The position numbers and the translations under genes were made by a program. From assembly GCA_005239955.1 (NCBI GenBank), contig SBAW01000036.1, positions 1-49,940 on the forward strand: a DNA stretch of 49,940 nucleotides, given 5' to 3'. Of the stretch, positions 11,773 through 49,587 are shown piece after piece. The notes under the pieces are model-generated. The model made no database searches. It had not been told where the DNA came from and saw nothing but the letters and a program-made list of their open reading frames with translations. The stretch is from a bacterium (GTDB taxonomy: Bacteria; Patescibacteriota; Minisyncoccia; Phycocordibacterales; SBAW01). Position 1 is the stretch's first letter. The number at the start of each line of letters is the position of its first letter.

Positions 11773-11778
11773 TATACT
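11773..11778 (+). promoter_or_regulatory. -10 box for a leaderless start, divergent promoter gap
   Basis: TATACT lies only 6 nt before the ATG at 11785, so transcription would start at or next to the start codon. The -35 is weak. On the opposite strand the same sequence reads TATAGT, 27 nt before the ATG of the divergent glycosyltransferase (11746), so the 38-nt gap serves both directions. Confidence 0.6.
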
Positions 11779-11784
11779 GCCTCT

Positions 11785-13008
11785 ATGATTGAGAGGGTGA
11801 CGTCGTGCCGTGTGTGCGGAGGGACTAGTCTGACGCCGTTTTTTGATCTTGGGGAGCAGCCGTTTGCGAACGCGCTCCTTAAAAATCCGAATGACCCTGA
11901 TCCTCGGTATCCCCTTGCACTTTTATTCTGTAACACCTGCTCGCTGGTACAACTGACACATCGCGCCTCGGAGCGGGAACTGTTTGCTCATTATGTGTGG
12001 GTGTCGGGCACATCAACCGCGATACACTCCTTTAGCGAACAATTCTCCGATGAACTTCTCCGCCGCGCACCTTTGGCAAAGAATGGGTACGTCCTCGAAA
12101 TTGCCAGCAACGACGGCACCATGCTGAAGCCCTTTCTTAAACGTGGGTTAGAGGTCCTCGGTATCGATCCGGCAGAAAATATTGCGGCGATGGCGAACCA
12201 AGCCGGCATACCAACCGAGCCCGTCTTTTGGAGTAGGGAGGCGGCTCGCGACCTCGTGACTCGTAAAGGTCCCTCCCCCATCATCTTCGCGCGCAATGTG
12301 CTCCCTCATGTGAGCAATCAGCGCGATTTCGCTGAAGGTCTATCAATCGCGCTTGCGGAGGACGGCGTTCTTGCGATCGAGATTCACTACGCGGGCGTCA
12401 TCCTCAAGGATCTCCACTACGACTCGATTTACCACGAACATCACTGCTACTTCAGTCTCAGAGCGGTCGAACGACTCCTTAGCGAATGTGGACTCCAGGC
12501 CTTCGACATCATGCAAAGCCCCATCAATGCCGGTAACATCATTCTCTACCTTCGTAAGGGTCCGCAGTCACCCTCTCCTACTCTCGCCACCTTGAGAGCG
12601 GAAGAAGAGGCGCAAGGCGTACATCAACTTGGTCCGTGGCAGGAGTTTGCAATACGGGCAAAGCACCATAAAGAGGAGCTCGTTGCCCTCCTAGGGAAAC
12701 TCCTGAGCGAGGGAAAAAGTATCGCGGGGTATGGGGCCTCCGCGCGAAGCTCGACAATGCTTAACTTCTGTGGAATAGATAATGAGATCCTGCCCGTTAT
12801 CGCAGATAAGAGCCCGCTCAAGCAAGGACTCGTGACTGCGGGGACGCATATCAAGATCGTGAGCCCTGCCGAGATGCTCAAAGAAGCTCCCGACATTGTC
12901 ATGCTCCTCGCGTGGAATTTTAAAGAAGAAATCGTCGCGGAACTTCGAAATTCTTACGATTACACGGGTCGCTTCCTGACACCGTTCCCCACTATCTCTA
13001 TTGAATAA
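11785..13008 (+). CDS. C-methyltransferase-type SAM-dependent sugar methyltransferase
   Basis: The protein is 407 residues with the start at ATG 11785, 6 nt after TATACT. A GTG at 11755 is in frame but would place the -10 inside the gene. The N-terminal zinc-binding domain starts with CRVCGG and includes FDLGEQPFANALL and a second CNTC pair. The central Rossmann domain has VLEIASNDGTML and FARNVLPHV. The C-terminal domain has GKSIAGYGASARSSTMLN and KQGLVTAGTHI. This three-domain order is that of NovU/TylCIII-like C-methyltransferases acting on NDP-4-keto-deoxysugars. It opens the plus-strand sugar operon, 2 nt before the heptose kinase gene, which suggests a branched or modified heptose or deoxysugar product. 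Confidence 0.88.
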   Translation: MIERVTSCRVCGGTSLTPFFDLGEQPFANALLKNPNDPDPRYPLALLFCNTCSLVQLTHRASERELFAHYVWVSGTSTAIHSFSEQFSDELLRRAPLAKNGYVLEIASNDGTMLKPFLKRGLEVLGIDPAENIAAMANQAGIPTEPVFWSREAARDLVTRKGPSPIIFARNVLPHVSNQRDFAEGLSIALAEDGVLAIEIHYAGVILKDLHYDSIYHEHHCYFSLRAVERLLSECGLQAFDIMQSPINAGNIILYLRKGPQSPSPTLATLRAEEEAQGVHQLGPWQEFAIRAKHHKEELVALLGKLLSEGKSIAGYGASARSSTMLNFCGIDNEILPVIADKSPLKQGLVTAGTHIKIVSPAEMLKEAPDIVMLLAWNFKEEIVAELRNSYDYTGRFLTPFPTISIE

Positions 13009-46522: not shown

Positions 46523-46664
46523 GTCACCAGTTTCTAAGTCGCTTTGCTCCATAAGAACTGTCGGCCCCGGCTCGTCCGCTTCGCAGACTCCGCCCTTCAA
46601 ACTCCTTCTCGCCTCACAATGATAACTCGTTCAGACTGCCCCCGGCAGTCTTCACGAATCATTG
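46523..46664 (-). other. Spacer between tRNA-Leu and murI with nested hairpin
   Basis: No gene is seen. In minus-strand sense it holds AGACTGCC-GGG-GGCAGTCT, a perfect 8-bp hairpin, enclosed by CACAATGAT and ATCATTGTG. There is no T-run after it. It may be a remnant of inserted DNA between the two tRNA 3'-end copies. Confidence 0.55.
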
Positions 46665-46746
46665 TGGGCGCGAGAGGACTTGAACCTCCATGCCTTGCGG
46701 CATACGCTCCTGAAGCGTACGTGTCTACCAATTCCACCACGCGCCC
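46665..46746 (-). tRNA. tRNA-Leu (anticodon CAG)
   Basis: An 82-nt cloverleaf with 7-bp acceptor GGGCGCG/CGCGCCC, discriminator A, the long variable arm of a leucine tRNA (TGCCGCAAGGCA), T-loop GTTCAAGTC, and anticodon loop TTCAGGA. CCA is not encoded. It reads CUG codons. Confidence 0.93.
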
Positions 46747-46752
46747 GTTGCA

Positions 46753-46781
46753 TGGGATCGAACTTTTGTCTTTCCCTTATC
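46753..46781 (-). pseudogene. 3'-half fragment resembling tRNA-Ile
   Basis: About 24 of 29 positions match the anticodon-to-T-arm part of the intact tRNA-Ile at 46833-46862 (shared: GATAAGGGAAAG and GTTCGATCCC). The acceptor strand does not pair with anything nearby, so it is a remnant. Confidence 0.65.
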
Positions 46782-46822
46782 GGCGGCAGCGAGCGAGGGC
46801 TGAAAACAGATAACTCGCTGTG

Positions 46823-46894
46823 TGCGGGCGGAAGGGATCGAACCTTCGACCTTTCCCTTATCAGAGGAATGCTCTACCACTGAGCTACGCCCGC
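46823..46894 (-). tRNA. tRNA-Ile (anticodon GAT)
   Basis: A cloverleaf with acceptor GCGGGCG/CGCCCGC, D-arm GCTCAGTGGTAGAGC, anticodon stem TTCCT/GGGAA with loop CTGATAA, and T-arm with GGTTCGATCC. Discriminator A; CCA is not encoded. In many bacteria this tRNA lies in the 16S-23S spacer; here it is separated from the 16S by a terminator. Confidence 0.94.
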
Positions 46895-46954
46895 ACACAA
46901 GGAACTATTTTGTTTTCAAGCCCGAGCGAGCGAACCGCCGATATGCTTTGCATA

Positions 46955-47005
46955 TCAGAGGAATGCTCCCTGCCTGCGCAGGCAGGTACCACTTCAGCTA
47001 GCCTG
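46955..47005 (-). pseudogene. 5'-half fragment resembling tRNA-Ile with an 18-nt palindrome in its D-loop
   Basis: GAGCATTCCTCTGA is identical to the tRNA-Ile D-arm end and anticodon arm. TAGCTGAAGTGGTA matches its D-arm start with one extra base. The two parts are separated exactly after GGTA by the palindrome CCTGCCTGCGCAGGCAGG. No T-arm or acceptor partner follows. Confidence 0.7.
46969..46986. repeat. Perfect 18-bp palindrome inserted in tRNA-like sequence
   Basis: CCTGCCTGCGCAGGCAGG equals its own reverse complement. It occurs once in this window and interrupts the tRNA-Ile-like fragment, as a dispersed palindromic repeat would. Confidence 0.85.
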
Positions 47006-47047
47006 CAGTTTCGAACCTTCTATATCTATCAGGAAACGCGCTCTCAC

Positions 47048-47077
47048 GCAAAAGCCCGCCTCGCGGCGGGCTTTTGC
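47048..47077 (-). terminator. Terminator after 16S rRNA
   Basis: A perfect 13-bp inverted repeat GCAAAAGCCCGCC/GGCGGGCTTTTGC with a 4-nt loop. The T-stretch in the 3' arm fits an intrinsic terminator, symmetric enough to act in both directions. It lies just outside the pre-16S processing stem. Confidence 0.8.
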
Positions 47078-47092
47078 TACAGCATCTTTCTT

Positions 47093-47106
47093 TTGTTTCG
47101 TTCATC
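47093..47106 (-). other. 3' strand of the pre-16S processing stem
   Basis: GATGAACGAAACAA in minus-strand sense pairs perfectly with TTGTTTCGTTCATC at 49574-49587 upstream of the 16S 5' end. The 14-bp helix encloses the whole 16S gene and would be the RNase III-type processing site. Confidence 0.75.
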
Positions 47107-47362
47107 ACCAGTGTCGGTATGTCTGGCGAACCGAGCGCATTTTAAAGATATCGCGCCACTATCTCTCTCGATTGCTCGAGCGATCGACTGTCAGTCATCC
47201 TGATGCCTTGCGGCAGAAGGACAACGTTTTCACCTTGAATGAATCCACGAACAGCTTCCGCTACCCGTGCCTTGTTACGACTTACTCCCTGTCACTGAGC
47301 TTACCGTGGGCCTGCGCGAGGCAGGACTTCGGGCACTCCCAGCTCCCTTGAGTTGACGGGCG

Positions 47363-48212
47363 AGTATCTTCGCAAATCTACGAATTAATGTTCCCACCGT
47401 ACGTGCGGCTTTCCCGCATACGGCGAGTTCAGTGCATCCGCTGCTTCAACAAAAGCAGCCGCTGAACGCCGGCATCCGTCCGATGAATTTCTTTATTCAG
47501 AAGTTTCATCATCGTGCAAAATACCGTAAAGTCATGTCGCTTCGATGCAAATCGAAGCGTATGCTTCGTGAAAAACGGAATAATAATATCCGTTAAATCA
47601 CTCCACCGATATACCTCGAACCGGTAGCAATTTTGGTGATTGGGCCGTGTGTCTTTCTGAAAATACACACTGCCACAGCCAAAATAATCTCGGAGTTTAA
47701 AGAGAATCTTTTTGTCTCGCTCGATGAGTTTGATGTAGAACTTTGGTTCTACAACTACTCGTCGAGCTGCCGTTTTTACGTTCGAGGGATCTCGAACATA
47801 TACGGTAAAGCTCCCTTCTCCGTCTACTAGTCCGACAATATAGTCGGGCGTTAGCGATTCACTGAATGAGCCCTTCATTGCATTCCTGCAGTTACTATGA
47901 CTCAGCTGACTTCTGACGCTGCGTCAGATTTATTCTACCGTGCATTGGCACGATAACAGCGTCAGATCTCCACAGGTTACGCATTGCTCCTTTCCAAACA
48001 TCCATACCAGATTTGATTCTCGATCTTCCCTACCCTCACCGCCCATCTGGCAGGTCGATCAATCTGTTGCTTTGTATGGCTATTTTTTGCATCCGGACCC
48101 TCCGCCACCATCCTCACGGAATAGTGACTGTCCTTCTGCTACGCTCCCAGAGACGATCCGGGAGGCGCGGATTTTAACCGCGTGGCGCAATGCGCTGCTG
48201 TGCGCGTTTATT
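47363..48212 (-). other. Intron in 16S rRNA near position 1399/1400 (E. coli numbering)
   Basis: The 16S reads TTGTACTCAC at 48213 and resumes with CGCCCGTCA at 47362, so about 850 nt interrupt the decoding region between C1399 and C1400. The intron carries a LAGLIDADG gene. Close to its 3' end is a hairpin CCGTATGCGG-GAAAG-CCGCACGTACGG with a 2-nt bulge, like the structured 3' parts of self-splicing introns. A homing intron of group I type is most likely, but I could not identify the P7 core. Splice points may shift by a few bases. Confidence 0.85.
47429..47878 (-). CDS. Intron-encoded LAGLIDADG homing endonuclease
   Basis: The protein is 149 residues. YIVGLVDGEGSF at 13-24 is the single LAGLIDADG helix with its acidic catalytic residue; KFYIKLIERDKKILFKLRDYFG and SVYFQKD are typical of the saddle-shaped DNA-binding fold. 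With one motif it should work as a homodimer. It would cut intron-less 16S genes at the insertion site and spread the intron by homing. The basic C-terminus (KEIHRTDAGVQRLLLLKQR) fits this family. Confidence 0.92.
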   Translation of the reverse strand: MKGSFSESLTPDYIVGLVDGEGSFTVYVRDPSNVKTAARRVVVEPKFYIKLIERDKKILFKLRDYFGCGSVYFQKDTRPNHQNCYRFEVYRWSDLTDIIIPFFTKHTLRFASKRHDFTVFCTMMKLLNKEIHRTDAGVQRLLLLKQRMH

Positions 48213-49024
48213 GTGAGTACAAGACTTGAGAACGTATTCACCGCGGTATAGCTGACCCGCGATTACTAGCGATTCCGACTTCATGAGGTCGAGTTGCAGA
48301 CCTCAATCCGAATTGGGCCAACCTTTCTAAGGATTTGCTCCGTCTTACGACATTGCGTCCCGTTGTAGTTGGCATTGTATCATGCGTGCAGCCCAGGGTA
48401 TCAGAGGGACATGCTGACCTGGCGTCATCCCCACCTTCCTCTCCCGTGAGGGAGCAGTCTCGCCTGACATGTAAAACAGGCAACGGGGGTTGCGTTCGTT
48501 ACCCCACTGAAGGGAACAGTTCAAACCACGAACTGACGACGGCCATGCATCACCTGTGATGCCGCCTTGCGGGGGCTCTCCTTTCAAAGAGCTTTCGTCA
48601 TCATTTCTAACCCTGGTAAGGTTCTTCGTTTACCATCGAATTAAGCCGCATGATCCACCGCTTGTGCAAGTCCCCGTCTATTCCTTTGAGTTTTAATCTT
48701 GCGATCGTACTACCCAGGCGGTTCTCTTAACGCGTTAGCTTCGCCTCTCAGAGGGTCGATACTCCGAAAAGCCAGAGAACATCGTTTAGGGCGTGGACTA
48801 CTGGGGTATCTAATCCCATTCGCTACCCACGCTTTCGTATCTCAGCGTCAGGAAATGTGCCAGTGTGCTGCCTTCGCATTTGGTGTTCCCCAAGATATCA
48901 ACGGATTTCACCCCTACACCTTGAGTTCCGCACACCTCTCACATCCTCGAGTTGTGCCGTTTCTCCCGCGCTTCCGCTGTTGAGCAGCGGGCTTTTACGA
49001 GAGACTAACACAACCGCCTACATA

Positions 49025-49057
<33 letters not shown>

Positions 49058-49573
49058 GGGCCTCTGTATTACCGCTCCTGCTGGCACAGAGTTAGGAGCC
49101 CCTTATTCTTGGAGTAACGTCAATAATTTCCTCCTCCATAAAAGATGTTTACGTCCCGAAGGACTTCGTCCATCACGCGGCGTCGCTCCGTCAGGCTTTC
49201 GCCCATTGCGGAATATTCTTGGCTGCAGCCATCCGTAGATGTATGGGCCGTGTCTCAGTCCCATCGGTGGGGGTCAAGCTCTCACTCCCCCTAGCCGTCA
49301 TAGCCTTGGTAAGCCATTACCTTACCAACTAGCTGATAGCCCGCAGGCTCTTCCCTCAGCGGATTGCTCCTTTACTCTCTCGAGACTATCGGGGATTACC
49401 TCGCCTTTCGGCGAGCTATACCCGACTGTGGGGTAGATTCCTACGTATTAATACCTCGTCTGCCGCTCCCTTGCGGGCGCTCGACTTGCATGCCTTATCC
49501 ACGCCGCCAGCGTTCACCCTGAGCTAGGATCAAACTCTATTTTATGAAGCTCCACGCTTGCGCGCTTCGCCTC

Positions 49574-49587
49574 GATGAACGAAACAA
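49574..49587 (-). other. 5' strand of the pre-16S processing stem
   Basis: TTGTTTCGTTCATC in minus-strand sense pairs with 47093-47106. See the 3' strand entry. Confidence 0.75.

Follow-up and report, generated by a model that had tools for sequence, protein, structure and literature searches.

Does a bacterial 16S rRNA that ends without CCUCC reflect a true loss of the anti-Shine-Dalgarno sequence (aSD), and, if so, how are the genes of such an organism started? The question is raised by the minus strand of the window, i.e., the whole stretch of 49,940 nucleotides analyzed here (contig SBAW01000036.1), whose only 16S rRNA gene ends, after an intact helix 45, in GAUUCAUUCAAGG. The first-pass annotation, made from this single sequence, had claimed that the aSD is absent and that initiation should be leaderless or led by the start codon alone. 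Our analysis confirmed the observation and supported the interpretation, and, moreover, showed that the trait is shared by essentially every sampled relative from a whole order of Parcubacteria. The features of the 16S locus are as follows.

48213-49545, minus strand: 16S rRNA exon 1, from the 5' end to CTTGTACTCAC (Rfam RF00177, 1266.8 bits, match at 48200-49545); the exon boundary is set by intronless relatives, which read CTTGTACTCACCGCCCGTCAACTC.
47363-48212, minus strand: group II-like intron of 850 nt in the 16S, not part of the aSD loss.
47429-47878, minus strand: ORF of a LAGLIDADG homing endonuclease (149 aa) inside the intron (Pfam PF00961, E 3.2e-17).
47233-47362, minus strand: 16S rRNA exon 2, from CGCCCGTCAACTC to the presumed 3' end, which is assumed to lie 13 nt after helix 45, as in E. 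coli.
47246-47269, minus strand: helix 45, intact, with a GGAA loop.
47233-47245, minus strand: 3' tail GATTCATTCAAGG, where GATCACCTCCTTA is expected; no aSD.
47229-47239, minus strand: mini-hairpin TTCA-AGG-TGAA, overlapping the site of the lost aSD.
49574-49587, minus strand: 5' leader strand of the presumed 16S processing stem (TTGTTTCGTTCATC).
47093-47106, minus strand: 3' trailer strand of the presumed 16S processing stem (GATGAACGAAACAA).
47050-47075, minus strand: intrinsic terminator-like hairpin after the 16S (AAAAGCCCGCCGCGAGGCGGGCTTTT).

The 3' part of the gene reads AAGTCGTAACAAGG (47283-47270), followed by the 10-bp helix 45 (CACGGGTAGC-GGAA-GCTGTTCGTG, 47269-47246) and then by GATTCATTCAAGGTGAAAACG. 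The elements CACG and CGTG, described in the first-pass annotation as linkers flanking helix 45, are in fact the outer half of this helix itself. CCTCC does not occur from exon 2 to the terminator. The genome (716 kb in 56 contigs, 91.6% complete) contains one 16S, and neither a second copy nor any 16S-type CCTCC end was found in this assembly. The first-pass annotation did not mention that the gene is split by an intron; the latter lies between CTTGTACTCAC and CGCCCGTCA (decoding region, 5' of helix 44), 117 bases upstream of the tail, and is unrelated to it. The intron is absent from the 16S of seven relatives; the Rfam model group-II-D1D4-1 matches it just over the threshold and a domain V-like hairpin is present at 47396-47424, yet it encodes a LAGLIDADG endonuclease and its ends do not match the group II GUGYG...AY consensus. 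As to the presumed processing stem, leader and trailer contain a 14-base exact complement, but the energy of the whole duplex is no better than that of shuffled sequences. The 16S is followed by its own terminator and then by tRNA-Ile and tRNA-Leu genes (46664-49545, minus strand); no 23S is seen in the window downstream of the 16S, so the rRNA operon looks split. Elsewhere in the window (595-36760) there is a long run of surface-sugar genes, judged from ORF translations only: NeuB-like synthases, UDP-GlcNAc epimerases, CMP-sugar transferases, NAD-dependent epimerases and glycosyltransferases.

Since the sequence comes from a metagenome assembly and an intron does lie in this 16S, an assembly error, a misread 3' end or an inserted element hiding a normal tail had to be considered. 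This explanation is refuted by comparison with the relatives. All 30 16S ends recovered from the family, the window included, lack CCTCC and share a consensus close to GAAYAATTCAAATGAAA, and intron-free relatives have the same kind of tail. In the order, the pattern GTCGTAACAAGG-N20-40-CCTCC was found in only 2 of 297 genomes (designated here G167, contig C6, 260-305, and G329, contig C26, 5400-5445). G167 has its own aSD-less copy as well as the CCTCC copy on a 4-kb contig, and the two CCTCC copies resemble each other more than the order, so both are probably contamination of the bins. We collected 84 16S ends of the order (the window and 83 other genomes), although over a quarter of the order genomes gave no 16S 3' end with the pattern used; none of the 84 has CCTCC. 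The tail is itself conserved (A2 in 84/84, U7 in 78/84, U8 in 82/84, C9 in 74/84), with the A/U-rich consensus GAWYAWUUCAA. Public records with the same helix 45 and similar tails belong to Kaiser-, Nomura-, Taylor-, Harrison-, Adler-, Staskawicz-, Colwell-, Campbell-, Zambryski-, Vogel- and Jorgensenbacteria, among them a complete chromosome, CP011215.1.

Where the loss occurred can be inferred from the relatives outside the order. Other classes of the phylum keep GGATCACCTCC, the tail being usually GATCACCTCCTTTCTA. Within the class but outside the order, of 98 tails 36 keep CCTCC, 15 keep only CTCC, 3 only TCC, and 44 none of these. CCUCC therefore decayed within the class and is gone throughout the sampled order.

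The structure at this place, however, appears to have been kept. In aSD-bearing relatives the tail and the bases after it can form CUCC-UUUCUAA-GGAG, while in the aSD-less order a hairpin stands at the same place with other letters (UUC/GAA, UUCC/GGAA, GUC/GAC, AUC/GAU, UUUUA/UAAAA). Of 80 distinct tails, 62 form at least 3 bp, whereas shuffling of the 3' side gives 26 on average (maximum 42) and dealing the 3' sides out anew among the sequences gives 54.6 on average and at most 61 in 500 trials. The excess over re-dealing is small but beyond every trial; as related sequences are not independent, we consider it good but not conclusive evidence for compensating changes. In the single-sequence fold of the own 3' region the hairpin is weak and the result is not informative (z -0.81). 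We suppose that the hairpin was kept probably because it serves 16S 3'-end maturation rather than mRNA binding: in aSD-bearing relatives the 3' half of the CUCC/GGAG hairpin lies beyond the E. coli-type mature end, which makes a precursor role the simpler reading. It is possible, though we regard it as unlikely given also the shortness of the stems, that the hairpin is part of the mature 16S and has acquired a new role, for example capping or sequestering the 3' end or docking on the divergent bS21. In this case, equally doubtful as a whole, an entire order would have turned the end of its 16S rRNA into a structured, co-varying element in place of the single-stranded aSD, with initiation resting on leaderless mRNAs and a divergent bS21.

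Helix 45 is kept, with compensating changes in relatives, and the RsmA/KsgA family is found in 49 of 51 genomes. Loss of bS21, considered as a cause, was suggested by the Pfam model, which detected this protein in 24 of 79 order genomes at any score and in 5 over the cut-off; however, a profile built from three sequences of the order finds it in 73 of 79 genomes (in the own genome on contig C50, L189:104-385), so bS21 is divergent, not lost. Some of these hits contain an in-frame TAA or TAG within the matched stretch. Era binds GAUCA-CCUCC in other bacteria (PMC10582724), and a 2025 survey of ribosome biogenesis in CPR reports it to be mostly missing there and notes that the 16S 3' terminus was often not fully annotated, without mentioning Shine-Dalgarno (PMC12641178). 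Our search agrees: no match over the cut-off was obtained in 55 class genomes, with or without aSD. Era thus does not explain the difference, though its absence may have relaxed the tail.

The gene starts agree with the loss. Most of the own genome and stretches of other genomes were analyzed, with starts called mechanically as first ATGs. Shine-Dalgarno (SD) words (GGAG, GAGG, AGGA) at -18..-4 stand before 8.5% of 1357 genes in six aSD-less samples, against 10.2% at internal ATGs; in aSD-bearing relatives the values are 15.2% against 10.3% (p = 0.002), and the starts of the two groups differ at p = 4e-5. E. coli K-12, treated by the same crude method, gives 54% against 5%, so even the aSD-bearing relatives use SD sparingly. 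Two aSD-bearing members of the same class also show no SD enrichment, so the lack of SD use is not unique to aSD-less members; this fits SD disuse before aSD loss. The conservation of the new tail might suggest a changed aSD (about UUCAA) with a co-evolved SD (UUGAA) upstream of genes. However, TTGAA, TTGAAA, TGAAA, TTGAAT and CTTGAA are not enriched upstream in the own genome, Campbellbacteria, the genome designated G042 or pooled relatives, and the hairpin explains the conservation at least in part, which makes this possibility very unlikely.

Instead, a TATAAT-like -10 box begins exactly at -12 before 29 of 572 own genes, where about 1.4 are expected per position, while at internal ATGs there is no peak. 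In those 29 genes G stands at -14 in 66% and T at -15 in 48%; these are the extended -10 letters, which were not used in the selection. No clear peak of a -35 element was found in front of these boxes. The same -12 peak is present in Campbellbacteria, G042, another genome designated G158 and the pooled relatives, and is absent in E. coli (0 of 46). The base before the start codon is a pyrimidine more often than before internal ATGs (70% versus 59% in the own genome), as expected if the A of AUG is the transcription start. Given the usual geometry of sigma-70 promoters, this spacing should put the transcription start on or next to the start codon, which is the mark of leaderless mRNAs. An example of a predicted leaderless start in the window is the following.

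11773-11778, plus strand: -10 box TATACT, exactly 12 bases before the ATG at 11785.

The peak is also present in one aSD-bearing relative (designated G533), so leaderless genes probably came before the loss. Boxes at -13..-11 account for at most a fifth of genes per genome, and the way the rest are started is only inferred. In this respect, an SD-independent initiation mainly by A-rich, unstructured leaders, as in Bacteroidota, with leaderless genes being a minority, remains a tentative alternative: the region from -12 to -2 is A-rich in several low-GC genomes. However, the -10 box explains part of this A/T signal, and in the own genome with its 51% GC the A enrichment is modest.

Taken together, these data allow us to state with considerable confidence that the organism belongs to a large order of Parcubacteria whose ribosomes have lost the aSD, with the reservation that, in the absence of transcript data, the mature 3' end and the transcription starts are predicted from the sequence. 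Most likely, the ribosome of this order recognizes the start codon with initiator tRNA, mostly on leaderless mRNAs with 5'-terminal AUGs and, inside operons, on unstructured or coupled starts; this part of the scheme is an inference. With SD pairing unused, the C-rich tail drifted to A/U, while the short hairpin, probably needed for 3'-end maturation of 16S, was kept.

Bacteria without CCUCC in 16S are already known (Lim et al. 2012, cited in Amin et al. 2018, PMC6107228; PMC10783764) and include some Flavobacteriia, Mycoplasma, Carsonella and Hodgkinia. Like the order discussed here, they have an intact helix 45, a 13-base tail without aSD, no SD-like motif before genes and no co-evolved substitute motif. 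However, those 128 organisms are concentrated in a few genera, while here the loss covers a whole order (90 families sampled), with visible intermediate stages in sister orders, a kept and compensating 3' hairpin and a -10 box at -12. The main texts of both papers mention neither Parcubacteria nor candidate phyla, and we found no published report of order-wide loss in Parcubacteria in the open-access literature searched, although, as subscription papers were not covered, prior notice cannot be excluded. In Bacteroidota (Flavobacterium johnsoniae; PMC6847099, PMC9976891) mRNAs also lack SD and bS21 is kept, but the CCUCC tail is usually kept too and is hidden in a pocket of bS21, bS18 and bS6, whereas here the sequence itself is gone. 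In Mycobacterium tuberculosis (PMC3898074, PMC4633059) many starts likewise lie at or next to the transcription start, but mycobacteria appear to keep the aSD and to use SD leaders as well, while here no aSD remains. The mammalian mitochondrial small-subunit rRNA also has no aSD (PMC10582724), but it serves an organelle with a few mRNAs and not a bacterium with hundreds of genes.

CCUCC is among the most conserved sequences of bacterial life, and its loss was known mainly from scattered genera, endosymbionts and organelles. Its absence from a whole order of Parcubacteria, next to relatives with intact and half-decayed copies, gives a natural series for asking what the aSD is for, whether SD disuse comes before aSD loss, and how bacterial ribosomes pick start codons without it. 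In practice, gene finders that rely on SD motifs will misplace starts in these genomes, SD-based expression or reporter designs should fail in them, and rRNA annotation that demands the CCUCC end will truncate their 16S.
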